Source of the DNA: Ramlibacter sp. WS9
GTDB taxonomy: Bacteria > Pseudomonadota > Gammaproteobacteria > Burkholderiales > Burkholderiaceae_C
Assembly: GCF_003797765.1 (NCBI RefSeq)
Contig: NZ_RKMB01000005.1
Span: 1-64,000, forward strand
Direction of reading: 5' to 3'
Length of the DNA: 64,000 nucleotides
In this document: piece by piece, positions 3,779 through 35,100 of the stretch
Layout of the letters: each line of letters opens with the position of its first letter
Position numbering within the stretch: the stretch's first letter is position 1
The notes under the pieces: generated by a model
Databases searched by the model: none
Told to the model about the DNA's origin: nothing
What the model saw: the letters and a program-made list of their open reading frames with translations, nothing else
Translations under genes and position numbers: made by a program

Positions 3779-5208
3779 TGTTGTACGTCTCGACGCGCGG
3801 TCACGCTGACCGCAAGCACTTCTGCGAAATCCTGCTCGAGGGCTTGGCGCCGGATGGCGGTTTGTACCTGCCCGAACGCTACCCGCAGGTCGATTCGGCC
3901 ACGCTGGCGAAGTGGCGCGGCCTGCCGTACGCCGATCTGGCGTTCGAGATCCTGTCGCTGTACATCGACGACATTCCGGCGGCAGATCTGCGCGCGATCT
4001 GCCGCAAGACGTACACGGAGAAGGTGTTCGGCACGACGGAGATCGTGCCGCTGAAGAAGCTCGAAGACGGCCTGTGCCTGGAAGCCTTGTCCAACGGCCC
4101 GACGCTGGCGTTCAAGGACATGGCGATGCAGCTCCTGGGCAACCTGTTCGAATACGAACTGGCGCGCCGCGGTGAAGAACTCAACATTCTCGGCGCGACG
4201 TCCGGCGACACCGGCAGCGCGGCCGAATACGCGATGCGCGGCAAGAAGGGCGTACGCGTCTTCATGACGTCGCCGCATGGCCGCATGAGCCCGTTCCAGC
4301 AGGCGCAAATGTTCAGCCTGCAGGATGCCAACATCCACAACATCGCCATCGAAGGCGTGTTCGACGACTGCCAGGACATCGTCAAGGCCGTGTCGAACGA
4401 CCTCGACTTCAAGCGCAAGTACCGCATCGGCACAGTGAACTCCATCAACTGGGCCCGACTGGTGGCTCAGGTCGTTTACTACTTCGCCGGGTATTTTCAA
4501 GCCACAAGCCCTCTCCCAGAGGGAGAGGGAGCGAAGAAGGTCAGCTTCACTGTTCCCTCCGGCAACTTCGGCAACATCTGCGCGGGCCACGTCGCCCGCA
4601 GCATGGGCCTGCCGATCGACAAGCTCGTACTCGCCACCAACGAAAACGACGTGCTCGACGAGTTTTTCCGCACGGGTGTGTACCGCGTGCGTGCCGCCGC
4701 CGATACGCACGAGACGTCCAGCCCGTCGATGGACATCAGCAAGGCCAGCAACTTCGAACGCTTCGTCTTCGATTTGCTGGGACGCGACGGTCCCAGAGTC
4801 AAGTCGCTGTTCGGCGAACAGCTGTCCGCACAAGGCAAGTTCGACCTCAGCGCAGATCCCGCCTTCAAGCACGCACGCGAGCGCTACGGGTTCATCAGCG
4901 GCAAGAGCACGCATGCCGACCGCATCGCGACCATCCGCGACACACACGAGCGGTTCAAGGCGACGATCGACACGCACACCGCCGATGGCCTGAAGATCGC
5001 GCGCCAGCACGTGCAGCCCGGCGTTCCGATGATCGTGCTCGAGACCGCGTTGCCGATCAAGTTCGCGGCCAGCATCGTCGAAGCGCTCGGCCACGAGCCG
5101 GAACGGCCGCCGCAGTTCGAGGGCATCGAGAAGCTGCCCAAGCGCGTCAAGGTCATGCCGGCGGACGTGAAGGCCATCAAGGAATTCATCGCCGCGGAAT
5201 GCGCCTGA
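3778..5208 (+). CDS. thrC: Threonine synthase
   Basis: A 476-residue PLP enzyme converting O-phosphohomoserine to threonine. The N-terminus MLYVSTRGHADRKHF is typical of the bacterial type, and the PLP lysine is Lys113 in GPTLAFKDMAM. The glycine-rich phosphate site is ATSGDTGSAAEYA. The start ATG at 3778 overlaps the hom stop; an upstream extension of the same frame lies wholly inside hom and is spurious. Residues of about 244-252 (SPLPEGEGA) are encoded by a perfect palindrome, and this segment does not belong to the family consensus. It sits just before the conserved FTVPSGNFGN motif. Confidence 0.95.
   Translation: MLYVSTRGHADRKHFCEILLEGLAPDGGLYLPERYPQVDSATLAKWRGLPYADLAFEILSLYIDDIPAADLRAICRKTYTEKVFGTTEIVPLKKLEDGLCLEALSNGPTLAFKDMAMQLLGNLFEYELARRGEELNILGATSGDTGSAAEYAMRGKKGVRVFMTSPHGRMSPFQQAQMFSLQDANIHNIAIEGVFDDCQDIVKAVSNDLDFKRKYRIGTVNSINWARLVAQVVYYFAGYFQATSPLPEGEGAKKVSFTVPSGNFGNICAGHVARSMGLPIDKLVLATNENDVLDEFFRTGVYRVRAAADTHETSSPSMDISKASNFERFVFDLLGRDGPRVKSLFGEQLSAQGKFDLSADPAFKHARERYGFISGKSTHADRIATIRDTHERFKATIDTHTADGLKIARQHVQPGVPMIVLETALPIKFAASIVEALGHEPERPPQFEGIEKLPKRVKVMPADVKAIKEFIAAECA
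4509..4529. repeat. Palindromic repeat inside thrC
   Basis: Perfect 9-3-9 palindrome: left arm CCCTCTCCC, spacer AGA, right arm GGGAGAGGG. It is read in frame within thrC as part of SPLPEGEGA. The architecture matches the 9-3-9 palindrome inside mfd at 34557-34577. Confidence 0.8.
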
Positions 5209-5235: not shown

Positions 5236-5769
5236 ATGAAAGTCGTCGCCTTCGCGGGATTCTCGGGTTCGGGCAAGACCACGCTGGTCGAGCGGCTGAT
5301 CCCGGCCCTCAAGCTGCGCGGCCTGCGCGTTTCGGTGGTCAAGCACGCGCACCACAAGTTCGACATCGATCAGCCCGGCAAGGACACGTTCCGGCACCGC
5401 GAGGCCGGCGCCTTCGAGGTGGTGGTTGCGTCCGACAAGCGTCTCGCTCTGATGCGCGAATTCGAGCAGCCGGCGCAGCTGACGGTGCACCATCTGCTGG
5501 CGGAACTGTATGAGGGCGTCGACTGGGTGCTGGTCGAAGGCTTCAAGGCCAGCAACCTGCTGAAGATCGAGGTCTGGCGGCCGGCCGCCGGCAAGCCGGC
5601 GCTGTACAACGACGACGACTTCATCGCGGCCATCGCCACCGACTTGCCCGCGCAACTGCCCGGGCCCACCCTGCGCCCGGTGCTGGATTTGAACGATCCC
5701 GATGCGGTGGCCCAATGGCTGACCGAAAATGGGCACCGCTTCGACTACGACCCGGAGATGTATTCATGA
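5236..5769 (+). CDS. mobB: Molybdopterin-guanine dinucleotide biosynthesis adaptor MobB
   Basis: A 177-residue P-loop GTPase that supports MobA in attaching GMP to molybdopterin. The Walker A motif GFSGSGKTTL is at residues 8-17. It is followed by VVKHAHHKFDIDQPGKDT, the MobB region that holds the conserved histidines and the GKDT-type motif, and the later segment VLVEGFK. The ATG at 5236 puts the P-loop at the usual distance from the N-terminus. It begins 27 nt after thrC and overlaps moeA by 4 nt. No mobA is in the window. Confidence 0.9.
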   Translation: MKVVAFAGFSGSGKTTLVERLIPALKLRGLRVSVVKHAHHKFDIDQPGKDTFRHREAGAFEVVVASDKRLALMREFEQPAQLTVHHLLAELYEGVDWVLVEGFKASNLLKIEVWRPAAGKPALYNDDDFIAAIATDLPAQLPGPTLRPVLDLNDPDAVAQWLTENGHRFDYDPEMYS

Positions 5770-7004
5770 GCGCCCCACGCGCCCCACGCGCGCCGCTGAA
5801 GGCGCTCGACGATGCCTTGGCCGAGCTGCTGGGCCATGCACGAACGCTCGATGGCACCGAAACCGTCTCGACCTTCGACGCCGACGCGCGCGTGCTGGCG
5901 CAAGACCTCGTCTCGGCCTTACAGGTGCCGCCCCAGGACAACAGTTCGATGGACGGCTATGCCGTGCGCAGCAGCGAGATCGCCGACGAGGGCGTGAACC
6001 TGCCGGTTAGCCAGCGCATCCCCGCCGGCACCGCGCCCGAGCCATTGGTCCCAGGTAGCGCAGCGCGTATCTTCACCGGCGCGCCGATCCCGCCGGGCGC
6101 CGACGCGGTGGTGATGCAGGAAGAGACCGAACCCGCCGGTGAACAGGTCGTTCGCATCCTGCGCGTTCCCGCACCCGGCCAGTGGATCCGCCGCAGCGGC
6201 GAAGACGTGACGCGCGGTGCCGTGGTGCTGGCCAAGGGTGATCGTCTCACCGCCGCTGCGCTCGGCCTGGCCGCCAGCATCGGTATGGCCCAGCTGACGG
6301 TGGCTCGCCGCCCTCGCGTGGCACTCTTTTCCACCGGCGACGAGCTTGTGATGCCGGGCGAGGTTGCCCCGGACCAGATGAAGCCCGGTGCCATCTACAA
6401 CTCCAACCGCTTCTTCCTCAGCGCCTTGCTGCGCCGGCTGGAGTGCGAGGTCAGCGACTACGGCATCGTGCCGGACAAGCGTGACGCCACGCTCCAGGCG
6501 CTGGCGCATGCCGGCAAAGAGCACGACCTGATCCTCACCAGCGGCGGCGTCTCCGTCGGCGAAGAAGATCACATCAAGCCGGCGGTGGAGCAGCTCGGCT
6601 CGCTGGACCTGTGGCAGATCGCGATCAAGCCCGGCAAGCCCTTCGCCTATGGCAAGGTCGGCGCCGCGCACTTCATGGGCCTGCCGGGCAACCCGGTGTC
6701 GAGCTTCGTCACCTTTCTGCTGCTGGTGCGGCCCTTCCTGCTCAAGCTGCAGGGCGCAACCCAGCTCGCGCCTGCCCGCACGCAACTGCAGGCGCATTTC
6801 GACTGGCCTCGCGCCGACAAGCGCCGCGAGTTTCTGCGCGTGCGCCGCAATGCAGAAGGCGGCCTCGACCTATTCCCCAACCAGAGCTCGGGGGTGCTGA
6901 CTTCCGCCGCCTGGGGTGACGGCCTGGTCGACAACGCGCCCGGGCAGACGATCGCCAAGGGCCAGCTCGTGTCCTTCATTTCGCTCGCGGAGTTGCTGGC
7001 ATGA
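5766..7004 (+). CDS. moeA: Molybdopterin molybdenumtransferase MoeA
   Basis: A 412-residue enzyme that inserts molybdate into adenylylated molybdopterin. Signatures are QDNSSMDGYAVRS near the N-terminus, FTGAPIPPGADAVVMQEE, the MoCF domain segment LTSGGVSVGEEDHIKPA and MGLPGNPVSSFVTF. Length is normal (E. coli 411). I start at ATG 5766, overlapping the mobB stop, rather than at the in-frame codon at 5715 that lies inside mobB. The stop overlaps moaD by 4 nt, so mobB, moeA and moaD are coupled. Confidence 0.94.
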   Translation: MSAPRAPRAPLKALDDALAELLGHARTLDGTETVSTFDADARVLAQDLVSALQVPPQDNSSMDGYAVRSSEIADEGVNLPVSQRIPAGTAPEPLVPGSAARIFTGAPIPPGADAVVMQEETEPAGEQVVRILRVPAPGQWIRRSGEDVTRGAVVLAKGDRLTAAALGLAASIGMAQLTVARRPRVALFSTGDELVMPGEVAPDQMKPGAIYNSNRFFLSALLRRLECEVSDYGIVPDKRDATLQALAHAGKEHDLILTSGGVSVGEEDHIKPAVEQLGSLDLWQIAIKPGKPFAYGKVGAAHFMGLPGNPVSSFVTFLLLVRPFLLKLQGATQLAPARTQLQAHFDWPRADKRREFLRVRRNAEGGLDLFPNQSSGVLTSAAWGDGLVDNAPGQTIAKGQLVSFISLAELLA

Positions 7005-7252
7005 AGGTCACGGTGAAGTACTTCGCGTCCATCCGCGAAGCGTTGGGGCAGGGCAGCGAAACCGTCGATACGTCCGCAGGCAGCCTCGCCGCGTTGCGTG
7101 AAGAGCTGATCGCCCGCGGCGGCGCGCATGCGCAAGCGCTGGCGCATGGCAAGTCCGTGCGGGTCGCGTTGAACCAGGTGATGAGCGATGAATCCGTCGC
7201 GCTGGCCGAGGGCTGCGAGGTGGCGTTCTTTCCGCCGGTGACAGGGGGCTGA
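7001..7252 (+). CDS. moaD: Molybdopterin synthase small subunit MoaD
   Basis: An 83-residue ubiquitin-like sulfur carrier. It ends in the obligatory Gly-Gly (PPVTGG), which is adenylated and thiocarboxylated to donate sulfur in molybdopterin formation. The N-terminal strand MKVTVKYFASIREALG is typical. It overlaps moeA by 4 nt and is followed 4 nt later by moaE, its heterotetramer partner. Confidence 0.94.
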   Translation: MKVTVKYFASIREALGQGSETVDTSAGSLAALREELIARGGAHAQALAHGKSVRVALNQVMSDESVALAEGCEVAFFPPVTGG

Positions 7253-7256
7253 GCCC

Positions 7257-7820
7257 ATGGGCCCACGCGTTTCCATCCAGACCCAGGACTTCAACCTTGC
7301 CGACGAGATCGTGGCGCTGCAGGGGCCGGACAAGCGCGTCGGCGCCGTGTGCAGCTTCGTCGGCACGGTGAGAGGCGCGAATATGGCCCCCACGCTTGCC
7401 GCTGGCGCGGCTGCGCTGCCCCCCGAGGGGGCCCTGCCGCCTAGGGGCGGCCCGTCGCCGGCAGAGGGCAACAACGGTCCCCAGGTGCTGAGCATGGAGC
7501 TGGAGCACTACCCGGGCATGACGGAAAAGGCGATCGAAGCCATGATCGATGAAGCGCATCGGCGCTTCGACATCTATGGCGCGCGCGTGATCCACCGCAT
7601 CGGCGTGCTGCAGCCGCTGGACCAGATCGTGATGGTGGCGGTGACCTCGGCGCACCGCGGCGAGAGCTTCAAGGCCTGCGAGTTCCTGATGGACTACCTG
7701 AAGACGCAGGCGCCGTTCTGGAAAAAAGAGCAGACACCGCAGGGCGCGCACTGGGTCGATGCCCGCGTGACCGACGACGCCGCGCTGGCACGCTGGGGCA
7801 TCGAAAAACCCAACACCTGA
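7257..7820 (+). CDS. moaE: Molybdopterin synthase catalytic subunit MoaE with inserted repeat-encoded segment
   Basis: The large subunit of molybdopterin synthase, which converts precursor Z to molybdopterin using MoaD thiocarboxylate. Core motifs are GAVCSFVGTVRG, MELEHYPGMTEKAI, RIGVLQPLDQIVMV and APFWKKEQ, the last carrying the conserved active-site lysines. At 187 residues it is about 35 longer than E. coli MoaE (150). The excess is one block, residues of about 43-75, between FVGTVRGAN and VLSMELEHYPGM. It is rich in Pro, Ala and Gly and is encoded by a palindromic repeat cluster (7385-7470). Everything flanking it is intact, so I expect a functional enzyme with an added loop. Confidence 0.93.
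   Translation: MGPRVSIQTQDFNLADEIVALQGPDKRVGAVCSFVGTVRGANMAPTLAAGAAALPPEGALPPRGGPSPAEGNNGPQVLSMELEHYPGMTEKAIEAMIDEAHRRFDIYGARVIHRIGVLQPLDQIVMVAVTSAHRGESFKACEFLMDYLKTQAPFWKKEQTPQGAHWVDARVTDDAALARWGIEKPNT
7385..7470. repeat. Comamonadaceae-type palindromic repeat cluster inside moaE
   Basis: Contains GCCCCC-CGA-GGGGGC (7418-7432) and, four bases on, GCCGCC-TAGG-GGCGGC (7436-7451). The preceding CCCCCACGCTTGCCGCTG stretch resembles extragenic repeats that I associate with Comamonadaceae genomes. It is translated as part of moaE without a stop or frame change. Confidence 0.7.
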
Positions 7821-8339
7821 CTACTTCTTCCCCGGCGGCACGAAAGCCGCCCGCGCATCCTCTTCCAGCTCCCCCGTCAGCAACTGCAGCAGTTCCACCA
7901 ACTGCGCCTGCTGCGCCTTGTCGAGCGGCGCCAGCAGGCGCTTGTAGGCCTTTTCGGCAGGTTTCTGGGCCCGTGCCAGCATGGCCGTGCCTTCCGCCGT
8001 CAGCGCGACCGAGACATTGCGCTTGTTGTCGGGCGCGGGTGCCCGAGCCACCAGGCCGCGCGCTTCCAGGCCGCGCAGCACCCGAAGCACCGTCACCTTG
8101 TCGAAGCCCAGGGCTCGCGCGAGGCTGGACTGCCCCAACCCGGGGTGGGCCTTGACGACAGTCAGGACCCCGAACTGGGCCGGCGTCAGCGCCAGGTCGC
8201 GGCACTCGTCCTCGAAGACGGCGGCCGAGATCTGGTGGGCCCGGCGCAAAAGAAAGCCGGGGCGCACATAAAGGCGGGAGAGACTGGCGGGCATCGAAGC
8301 GGGCGGCGGTACAGGACCTAAAGCGTTACGGGAATCCAT
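7821..8339 (-). CDS. MarR-family transcriptional regulator
   Basis: A 172-residue winged helix-turn-helix regulator. The DNA-binding region includes LTPAQFGVLTVVKAHPGLGQ, SLARALGFDKVTVLRVLRGLEARGLV in consecutive helices and the wing APDNKRNVSVALTAEG. The C-terminal helices (KAYKRLLAPLDKAQQAQLVELL) form the dimer interface. I chose ATG 8339, which has GAGG about 8 nt upstream, over a TTG at 8366. It abuts moaE tail to tail with no spacer. It is divergent from the Bug-type binding protein and monooxygenase, which it probably regulates; that link is inferred from position. Confidence 0.88.
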   Translation of the reverse strand: MDSRNALGPVPPPASMPASLSRLYVRPGFLLRRAHQISAAVFEDECRDLALTPAQFGVLTVVKAHPGLGQSSLARALGFDKVTVLRVLRGLEARGLVARAPAPDNKRNVSVALTAEGTAMLARAQKPAEKAYKRLLAPLDKAQQAQLVELLQLLTGELEEDARAAFVPPGKK

Positions 8340-32179: not shown

Positions 32180-35100
32180 CATTTGCGCCCGGTCTTTCGG
32201 GTCCGGTAAATCCCGCTCGATGCGCAGCTTTTCGTTGCCGGCGAGCTTGATGTGCTTGTTCTTCTGCACCAGCTCGACGATGCGCATGAAGTCGATCGGA
32301 GGGTTCGCCTTGAAGGTGATGTTGATGACGCCGGGGGCGGCGTCGACCTTCACAACCCCGTAAGGACGGGCGAGCACGCGCAGGCGGTGCACGTCGATCA
32401 GCGTCTGGGCCTGGGGCGGCAACTTGCCGAAACGGTCGACGATCTCTTCGAGCAGCGCGTCGATCTGGTCCGTGGTCTTCGCAGTTGCCAGCCGTTTGTA
32501 GAACGACAGGCGCAGGTGCACGTCGCCGCAGTAGTCGTTGGGCAGGAGTGCGGGCGCGTGCAGGTTGATGTCGGTGGTGACGGACAGCGGGGCCAGCAGG
32601 TCGGGCTCCTTGCCCTCTTTCAACGACCGCACTGCTTCGGACAACATCTCGTTGTACAGCTGGAAGCCGATCTCGAGCATGTTGCCGCTCTGGTTTTCAC
32701 CCAGCACCTCGCCCGCGCCGCGGATCTCCAGGTCGTGCATGGCCAGGTAGAAGCCCGAGCCCAGTTCTTCCATCTGCTGGATGGCATCGAGGCGTTGCGC
32801 CGCCTGCTTGGTGAGGCTCTCGGTGTCCGGCACCATCAGGTACGCATAGGCTTGGTGGTGGCTGCGGCCGACGCGCCCGCGCAGCTGATGCAGCTGCGCA
32901 AGGCCGAACTTGTCGGCGCGGCTGATGACGATGGTGTTGGCCGTCGGCACGTCGATGCCGGTCTCGATGATGGTGGAGCACAGCAGCAGGTTGTAGCGCT
33001 GGGCGATGAAGTCGCGCATGACACGCTCGAGTTCGCGCTCGGGCATCTGGCCGTGCGCGACAGCGATGCGCGCCTCCGGGAGCAACTCCTCGAGCCGCTG
33101 GCGCCGGTTCTGGATGGTTTCGACTTCGTTGTGCAGGAAGTAGATCTGGCCGCCGCGTTTGAGCTCGCGCAACACGGCCTCGCGGATTACGCCGTTGCCT
33201 TCGTTGCGAACGAAGGTCTTGATCGCGAGCCGCCGCTGCGGCGCCGTGGCAATCACGGAGAGGTCTCGCAAGCCCTCAAGCGCCATGCCCAGCGTGCGTG
33301 GGATCGGGGTGGCCGTGAGCGTGAGCACGTCCACTTCCGCACGCATGGCTTTCATCGCCTCCTTGTGCCGCACGCCGAAGCGGTGCTCCTCGTCGATGAT
33401 CAGAAGGCCGAGGTTCTTGAACTTCGTCGACTCGGACAAGAGCTTGTGCGTGCCGACGACGATGTCGACACTGCCGTCGGCCAGGCCCTTGATCGTCGCC
33501 GTCACCTCCTTGCCCGAGCGGAAGCGCGAGACCTCGGCCACCTTGATCGGCCACTTGGAGAAACGGTCGACCAACGTGGTGTAGTGCTGCTCCGCCAGCA
33601 GCGTGGTGGGCGCGAGAAACGCCACCTGCTTGCCGCCCGTGATGGCGATGAACGCGGCGCGCAAAGCCACTTCGGTCTTGCCGAAGCCGACGTCGCCGCA
33701 GACCAACCGGTCCATCGGCTGCGGCGAGATCATGTCCTGGATGACGGCGTGAATGGCCGCGTTCTGGTCAGCGGTCTCCTCGAAGCCGAAGTCGTTCGCG
33801 AAGGTCTCGTAGTCTTGCGCGGAGAAGCGGAACGCGTGTCCTTCGCGCGCGGCGCGGCGGGCGTAGATGTTGAGCAATTCCGCCGCCGTGTCACGCACCT
33901 GCTCGGCGGCCTTGCGCCTGGCTTTCTCCCACTGGCCCGAGCCCAGCTTGTGCAGCGGCGCCTCGTCGGCCGAAACCCCGGTGTAGCGGCTGATCTGGTG
34001 CAAGCCGCTGACCGGCACGTACAGCGTGGCGTTGTCGGCATATTCAAGGTGCAGGAACTCGGTGCTGCCCTGGCCCAGGTCCATGTTGACCAGGCCCTTG
34101 TAGCGTCCGATGCCGTGCTGGGTGTGGACGACCGGATCGCCCACGTTGAGCTCCGACAGGTCCTTGATCAGCGCTTCGACGTCGCTGACCTGTTCCTGCT
34201 TCTTGCGGCGGCGCGTGGTGGGGCCCGCGGCGAAGAGCTCGGTCTCCGTGACGAAGTCGATGCCTTCTTCGAGCCAGCTGAAGCCAGTGTTGAGCGGCGC
34301 CGTTGCGATGCCCAGCTTCTCTTCGCTGGACTTGAATTCCTCCAGCGAGTCGAAGGCCGGCGGCGCCAGGTGGCTGGCGTGCAGGAAGTCGAGCAGGCTC
34401 TCGCGGCGGCCATCACTTTCGGCAAGCACCAGCACGCGGTGCTGCGTGTTGCGCAGGTGCTCCTTGAACTTCGCGAGCGGCTCGTCGGCGCCGCGGACCA
34501 CGGCCATCGGGGGCAATTCCTCCAATTCGGCGTACGGCGGCGTGCCCCCACCCCCGCCCTCCCCCGGAGGGGGAGGGAGTGAAGGCCGGATCGCCAACTG
34601 CGCATGCTCGTTCGCGCGGCCATAAAACTGCTCGGCCGTGAGAAACAAAGTTTCCGGCGGGAGTGCCGGGCGTTCCGGGTCGCCCTGCACCAGTCGGTAA
34701 CGGTCGCGCGTGTCCTGCCAGAACCGCTGGAACGCGGGCTCCAGGTCGCCATGCAGCACGACGGTGGCGGCGTTGCCGATGTAGTCGAACACCGTGGCCG
34801 TCTCTTCGAAGAACAGCGGCAGGTAATACTCGATGCCGGCTGTGGCGACGCCGTTGCCGATGTCCTTGTAGATGCGGCTCTTCGTCGGGTCGCCGTCCAA
34901 CAGCTCTCGCCAGCGGCTGCGAAAGCGGGCGCGGGCATCGTCGTCCATCGGGAATTCGCGGCCCGGCAGCAGGCGCACTTCGGGCACCGGGTACAGGCTG
35001 CGCTGACTGTCGGGGTCGAAGGTGCGGATGGAATCGATCTCGTCGTCGAACAGATCCACCCGCAGAGGCACGTTGGAGCCCATCGGGAACAGGTCGATCA

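Follow-up and report, generated by a model that had tools for sequence, protein, structure and literature searches.

The moaE gene of the window (the whole 64,000-nucleotide stretch of Ramlibacter sp. WS9 DNA analysed in this work) encodes a protein with an additional internal block, which raises the question of where this block came from and how the enzyme accommodates it. A sequence-only reading had proposed that a mobile palindromic repeat has become coding at this site, and the comparisons described below support this proposal, mobility being suggested by the existence of empty and filled sites in related genes. Very likely, the block represents one copy of a palindromic DNA element (about 78 bp) that is, or once was, mobile; the element is spread through Comamonadaceae genomes and would be tolerated in MoaE as a harmless loop.

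An in-frame insertion in MoaE

The features of the locus are compiled in Table 1. Upstream of moaE lie, in this order, mobB at some distance, moeA, and a MoaD-like gene of the ThiS family. Among the matches listed for its own genome, moaE was the sole MoaE match at E-values up to 1e-10, and the best Pfam MoaE stretch covers residues 73-151, beginning past the inserted block.

Table 1. Coordinates of the moaE region and of the inserted element in the window
Feature	Position	Strand	Basis
moeA	5715..7004	+	
moaD-like gene (ThiS family), directly upstream of moaE	7001..7252	+	
moaE, molybdopterin synthase catalytic subunit, 187 aa	7257..7820	+	ORF; Pfam MoaE E 2.8e-32
81-bp insert, codons 43-69, absent from nearest relative	7383..7463	+	loop DNA of L111 compared with L143, L146, L147, and L118
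Dispersed palindromic element, full length	7386..7463	+	covariance model R1 positions 1-78, 75.8 bits, E 1.6e-10
Hairpin I, GCCGC / GCGGC, varies between copies; outer two pairs counted, covary	7398..7411	+	
Hairpin II, GCCCCC / GGGGGC, invariant in 32 aligned copies	7418..7432	+	
Hairpin III, CTGCCG (7434-7439) / CGGCAG (7459-7464), variable stem, compensatory changes	7434..7464	+	

Empty sites with a 15-residue loop were found in three loci of the same genus code (L143, L146, and L147) and in two loci of another one (L118 and L123). The empty loop of L118 reads GGN-EGNNGAPVLSME, and that of the window reads GAN, followed by 27 residues and then by EGNNGPQVLSME. Comparison of the window with the empty loops of its relatives therefore delimits an insert of 81 bp that is in frame and has intact flanks, in agreement with the earlier claim that frame and neighbouring sequence are preserved. 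The block had been taken to comprise about 33 residues; its nature as an insertion is borne out by the empty sites of L143, L147, and L118, but its size is 27 residues (43-69). Residues 70-78 are part of the 15-residue loop that is present in these repeat-free relatives.

Residues R39, H133, R134, K149, and K156 (window numbering) are kept in all 61 aligned MoaE rows, and R39 corresponds to Arg39 of E. coli MoaE, an active-site residue. An AlphaFold model based on the alignment had a mean pLDDT of 83.5, with 109 of the 187 residues at 90 or more, whereas residues 41-70 showed block means of 52, 50, and 47 and no secondary structure. The model thus predicts that the block is a disordered loop within an intact MoaE fold; the block is presumably retained in the mature protein. 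Sixteen distinct PDB sequences match MoaE, and the three for which alignments were shown (7l32, 7l2a, and 3bii) are devoid of such a block.

A dispersed element with covarying hairpins

Alignment of 32 copies from the same genome revealed a common plan, in which a conserved GCCCCCACGCT start is followed by hairpins I, II, and III. Hairpin I is variable and missing in some of these copies, and hairpin III is a variable stem around CTNGGGGCGGCCCGNCG, so that the element has a conserved GCCCCCA 5' end and a variable stem at its 3' end. The two palindromes that had been noted in the sequence, 7418-7432 (GCCCCCCGAGGGGGC) and 7436-7451 (GCCGCCTAGGGGCGGC), are both present as claimed; the extent of the second needs to be corrected, the covarying stem being slightly wider (7434-7439 paired with 7459-7464). 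In hairpins I and III, 74 alignment cells had changed on both sides, as compared to 25.7 ± 4.0 after shuffling, with none of 500 shuffles reaching this number, and 88.7% of the cells were paired versus 47-58% when the partners were slid. Two of the five covariation measures did not clearly exceed the shuffles, namely, double-change pairs (227 of 500 as high) and further pair types (60 of 500 as high).

The covariance model (R1) identified 66 copies in the genome at E-values up to 0.01, these values being rough due to a short calibration, and the segment is consequently not single-copy, as the sequence-only reading had anticipated. The matches are 62 to 84 bp long, apart from one of 101 bp. All 40 places scored by BLAST, out of 146 candidate places, matched, including the query itself, and a two-part pattern had 24 matches in the whole genome versus none in the reversed control. 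Within the window, the 23-base core with up to 3 mismatches had no other match, and the mean in 100 shuffles was 0.00. Neighbouring copies are arranged head to tail with a period of mostly 81-87 bp, and a weak A-rich signal with TG is seen upstream of the element. Many copies contain CGTC internally, not at an end. A known RNA was considered as a candidate and rejected: the lone Rfam match with an E-value up to 1 in positions 6900-8000 is a sub-threshold mir-205 match at 6964-7017, outside the insert.

The element is widespread in related bacteria. Among the matches listed, 21 related genomes had from 5 to at least 150 matches each (150 being all that were scored), and 15 of 20 named genomes contained the element, including Polaromonas sp. 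JS666 (43 matches), Pseudorhodoferax (29), and V. paradoxus (17). The two Variovorax genomes had 17 and 24 matches, and 1 and 4 matches were found in a Paraburkholderia and a Burkholderia genome, respectively. Of the 20 named genomes, those of Cupriavidus, Massilia, Polynucleobacter, Collimonas, and Malikia had none. No match was obtained in 50,697 phage records at an E-value of 1e-3, and 4 of 72,556 plasmid records had a match, one of them under an annotated gene, the gene tables of the plasmids being incomplete.

Copies inside other genes

A home-made codon score of both flanks, trained on the open reading frames of the same loci, was used to assess whether a copy is located inside a gene. 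Four of the 66 copies of the own genome passed this test and 62 failed. The four hosts are MoaE, a PP2C phosphatase-Ser/Thr kinase fusion (L008), a DUF2126 protein (L226), and a hybrid histidine kinase (L323). In the fusion protein (L008:520-2472), the insert is read in the same frame as in MoaE, and the kinase model begins just past it. In other genomes, 21 of 83 scored copies were found inside genes, 4 of them with weak support on one flank; this proportion is not a genome-wide rate, since the 85 copies from other genomes were mostly the best-scoring ones listed, 2 of which lie at locus ends and remained unscored. Another 10 of the 66 own copies and 10 of the 83 other copies showed one shared best frame on both sides with a stop at or near the element; they were scored as not in-gene and could correspond to the ends of neighbouring genes or to broken genes.

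In-frame copies are present in about 20 other protein families, as defined by NCBIfam or Pfam, MoaE being the family for which empty homologues were read. Threonine synthase (ThrC) serves as host in three species of other genera (L267, L278, and L279), with the element inserted in both orientations at about the same site. KdpB carries two inserts, FdhD is a host in two genera, and FolC contains two tandem copies. Further hosts are GcvP, a fatty-acid hydroxylase family protein, biotin carboxylase, RlmI-like and AmgK-like proteins, RecJ, an alpha/beta hydrolase, valine-tRNA ligase, GlnD, Ada/AlkA, phosphogluconate dehydratase, and a GH94-like protein. At least one protein model spans the insert in GcvP, RlmI, RecJ, valine-tRNA ligase, GlnD, phosphogluconate dehydratase, DUF2126, the hydrolase, and the histidine kinase, and the best model is broken into several stretches in ThrC, KdpB, biotin carboxylase, AmgK, FolC, and FdhD. 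The evidence is weaker for the fatty-acid hydroxylase, the GH94-like protein, Ada/AlkA, and a Fic protein, in which the insert is located outside or between the modelled stretches; the annotated Fic host is WP_075587959.1 from a Rhodoferax antarcticus plasmid. Tandem in-frame copies that give at least two successive repeat peptides were seen inside three genes, namely, those for MoaE (L187, genome G380), FolC (L346, G364), and the GH94-like protein (L344, G364).

The element is almost exclusively read in one frame per strand, in which it encodes a linker rich in Pro, Gly, Ala, and Ser. In 150 copies, frames 0, 1, and 2 were open in 82, 78, and 52% of cases in the sense direction and in 86, 27, and 88% in antisense, and 11 of 24 in-gene copies were read in sense frame 0 and 12 in antisense frame 2. 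The remaining copy (L226) contains an additional base inside the element and encodes the identical peptide up to that base. This count comprises 24 of the 25 in-gene copies, the second FolC copy having been omitted, and its rows are partly non-independent (ThrC in two genera on the same strand, and KdpB twice). With equal use of the open frames, 11 sense copies would be expected by chance in about 1 in 10,000 and 12 antisense copies in about 1 in 20,000 cases, according to our own arithmetic and before correction for the post hoc choice of frames and for non-independent rows. The frames used read APTL...LPPEGA...GGPS and AGPPQG...APSGGSA.HEV.SVGA, and translation of the consensus showed that the open frames left unused on each strand are rich in arginine.

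Recurrence at one moaE codon

MoaE was identified in at least 286 of 299 genomes drawn from the family; the genus surveys covered 60, 7, 87, 5, and 1 genomes, of which 59, 7, 77, 5, and 1 had MoaE. At least 15 of 165 compared MoaE genes, the loops of which were read from loci returned by the searches, carry an insert at the same codon and in the same orientation and frame. These carriers belong to five genus codes: g1, which is that of the window (2 carriers), g99 (9), g62 (2), g71 (1), and g64 (1). Genus code g99 is probably Polaromonas, because one of its MoaE rows is identical over the compared stretch to that of Polaromonas sp. JS666. In all 15 carriers, the distance from the VR codons to the start of the element is 12 nt, and in L187 (g99) its two tandem copies extend the loop to 70 residues. 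Longer loops without a clear repeat (L116, L186/L039, L057, L031, and L157) were counted as non-carriers. Loops of 18-32 residues without a recognisable repeat occur at the same site in L031, L039/L186, L057, and L157 and are possibly decayed inserts.

The block is not a conserved feature of related MoaE proteins, and its carriers are scattered on the MoaE tree. For this tree, the loop was removed, and 165 rows remained after exclusion of 5 identical rows, repeated loci, and rows lacking complete ends; the tree is short, and 27 of 162 inner branches were starred. Carrier state changed 14 times, close to the mean of 14.6 for shuffled labels, and the starred branches alone force at least five changes. 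An empty MoaE (L170) shares 93% core identity with a carrier (L113). It is unlikely that all inserts descend from one old insertion in an ancestral MoaE, passed on vertically and by recombination and precisely lost in most lineages, even though site, orientation, and frame are common to 15 of 15 inserts and 8 of them, including that of the window, are nearest to another MoaE insert. The distal half is nearly identical in 7 of the 9 g99 inserts, so that part of the scatter may be due to recombination of an old insertion, and the ending VLSME is frequent in inserted as well as in some longer uninserted loops. A common origin would, however, require many precise excisions, the Massilia, Burkholderia, and Polynucleobacter rows that were read have a 12-residue loop, and a single clade of carrier cores was rejected (log-likelihood difference 353, p-AU 7e-80). 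Moreover, for 6 of the 15 inserts the nearest sequence is a copy outside MoaE, in one case by a margin of 0.001 only, and 1 insert is tied, in a comparison that for most carriers included few, if any, genomic copies from their own species. The insert of L183 shares 98.7% identity with a copy outside MoaE from another species (L329) and 84.6% with the best other MoaE insert, and the corresponding values for L113 are 94.9 and 88.5%. Since some inserts are closer to copies outside MoaE, repeated insertion at one site appears likely, and the number of separate insertions would be below 14 and, judged from insert type and tree, at least five or six.

Adaptation appears to be a very unlikely reason for this recurrence. 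An insertion that alters MoaE activity or partner binding could have been kept as useful, which would agree with its repeated presence at one codon near the arginine equivalent to the active-site Arg39 of E. coli and with the use of linker-like frames; yet the same peptides are present in unrelated proteins such as a tRNA ligase, KdpB, RecJ, and a Fic protein, the block is predicted to be disordered, and most of the compared MoaE rows lack it. An assembly or annotation artefact, or a pseudogene, is strongly disfavoured: the genome is a draft of 180 contigs, but inserts of the same kind are present in 14 other genomes, one of which (G364) consists of 3 contigs, and the frame is open, the core residues are conserved, and moaE is a single match. 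Insertion of a dispersed element that is tolerated as a loop remains the preferred reading, the insert being presumably close to neutral. A bolder version, which we consider possible and put forward tentatively, is that the element is a coding-compatible selfish repeat of Comamonadaceae with a true hot spot in moaE that was hit independently in several genera. If this were so, an open frame encoding a bland linker on each strand would let the element spread into genes, and the moaE codon three residues past the VR arginine would record its activity over evolutionary time.

Probable insertion and persistence of the element

Most likely, the hairpin-forming element inserts in a transposition-like manner beside A-rich targets, and in moaE the insertion point would be located after the third codon past the VR motif, beside an AAT codon. 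In-gene insertions would persist only where neither the protein site nor the encoded frame causes harm, and copies in other frames may have been removed by selection. The persistence of the moaE insertion may be explained by the fact that, on each strand, the element keeps open a frame for a flexible peptide rich in Pro, Gly, Ala, and Ser; with this bland linker frame, MoaE would gain only a disordered loop. Inspection of the MoaE site by eye revealed no target-site duplication, and no conserved terminal inverted repeat was seen in the element alignment.

A RAYT transposase was considered as mobiliser. One or two Y1 transposase genes were found in 7 of the 8 genomes searched, and for the nine places concerned there was no element within about 5 kb of eight and within 1.5 kb of the ninth. 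None of the 9 short or 8 wider Y1 loci of these 8 genomes had an element match with an E-value below 0.7. The gene neighbourhood hence provides no support for this candidate, although action in trans is possible. The single Y1 (RAYT-like) match of the own genome (L406 and L415, G000:C125:149234-149563) has no element nearby.

Relation to known repeats and significance

Rickettsia palindromic elements (RPE) are reportedly the subject of studies by Ogata from 2000 and 2002. The available parts of several articles describe them as dispersed palindromic repeats that occur both between genes and, in frame, within conserved protein genes (PMC2229807, PMC10969869, PMC6649704, PMC3733652), with a length of 105-146 bp (PMC2229807). 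The likeness to RPE that had been suggested for the MoaE block holds for behaviour, as the element is equally palindromic, dispersed, and present between genes and in frame in conserved genes, where it encodes a loop. In contrast to what is described for RPE, it has a length of about 78 bp and a three-hairpin plan and is found in Betaproteobacteria with large genomes; it is probably another family.

According to the accessible sections of Di Nocera 2013 (PMC3733652), intragenic GTAG/CGTC-tagged REPs encode 20-30 residues in many bacteria, including free-living ones such as Thauera, a REP is located at about the same recB site in two Xanthomonas, and the units measure 20-40 bp with the tag at one end. 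Polaromonas, Acidovorax, Variovorax, and Burkholderia do not occur in the main text of that article (PMC3733652). The present element resembles the REPs so described in being palindromic, intragenic, and coding but differs in its size of about 78 bp, its three hairpins, its head-to-tail tandems, and the absence of a terminal GTAG/CGTC tag. The Beta-proteobacterial repeat element (BRE), in the portions of Hot 2011 (PMC3110155) at hand, is 75-91 bp long, occurs in tandem with few bases between copies, is most numerous in Polaromonas sp. JS666 (29 copies), and is in some cases located wholly in coding sequences. Size, tandem habit, presence in Comamonadaceae, some coding copies, and the top count in JS666 are all shared with the present element, which may therefore be BRE, the comparison having been made by description only; the counts differ for JS666 (43 versus 29) and for V. 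paradoxus, with 17 matches versus no Variovorax entry in the BRE table of the same portions (PMC3110155). MITEs such as ERIC, YPAL, and Correia are described in the available text of Delihas 2007 (PMC2229807) as non-autonomous repeats of small size that form in-frame fusions with host open reading frames. The element is likewise small and in frame with host genes, but its alignment, with a conserved 5' end and a variable 3' stem, revealed no conserved terminal inverted repeat.

As far as the accessible parts of these articles show, intragenic palindromic repeats have been described before, both in Rickettsia and, in the form of REPs, in several other species (PMC3733652, PMC2229807, PMC10969869, PMC6649704). 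The literature searched contained no description of a repeat insertion in MoaE, the closest articles being Hot 2011 and Di Nocera 2013, nor of the moaE hot spot, the rule of one frame per strand, and the variety of Comamonadaceae genes that host the element. A literal search of papers for CCCCCGAGGGGG gave one unrelated match. Rickettsia is the best-known source of in-frame palindromic repeats; the present Betaproteobacteria, whose genomes measure several megabases, are heavily loaded with such an element. A well-understood enzyme that exists naturally with and without the insert, together with candidates in some 20 other families, makes it possible to measure the cost of insertion, any resulting protein changes, and the movement of a palindromic repeat without an obvious transposase. 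For annotation, loops that read APTL...LPPEGA...GGPS or AGPPQG...APSGGSA..V.SVGA should be treated as repeat-derived.

Other hairpin repeats in the window

A different short repeat was noted in the threonine synthase gene of the window, where SPLPEGEG is encoded at 4509-4529 by a perfect hairpin, CCCTCTCCC-aga-GGGAGAGGG. It is located at about the ThrC site that is occupied by the MoaE-type element in other genera (L267, L278, and L279), and the repeat encoding SPLPEGEG is also present in two further loci of the same genome (L015 and L307). A similar hairpin with mismatches, CTCCCCC...GGGGGAGGG, is found at 34557-34577.
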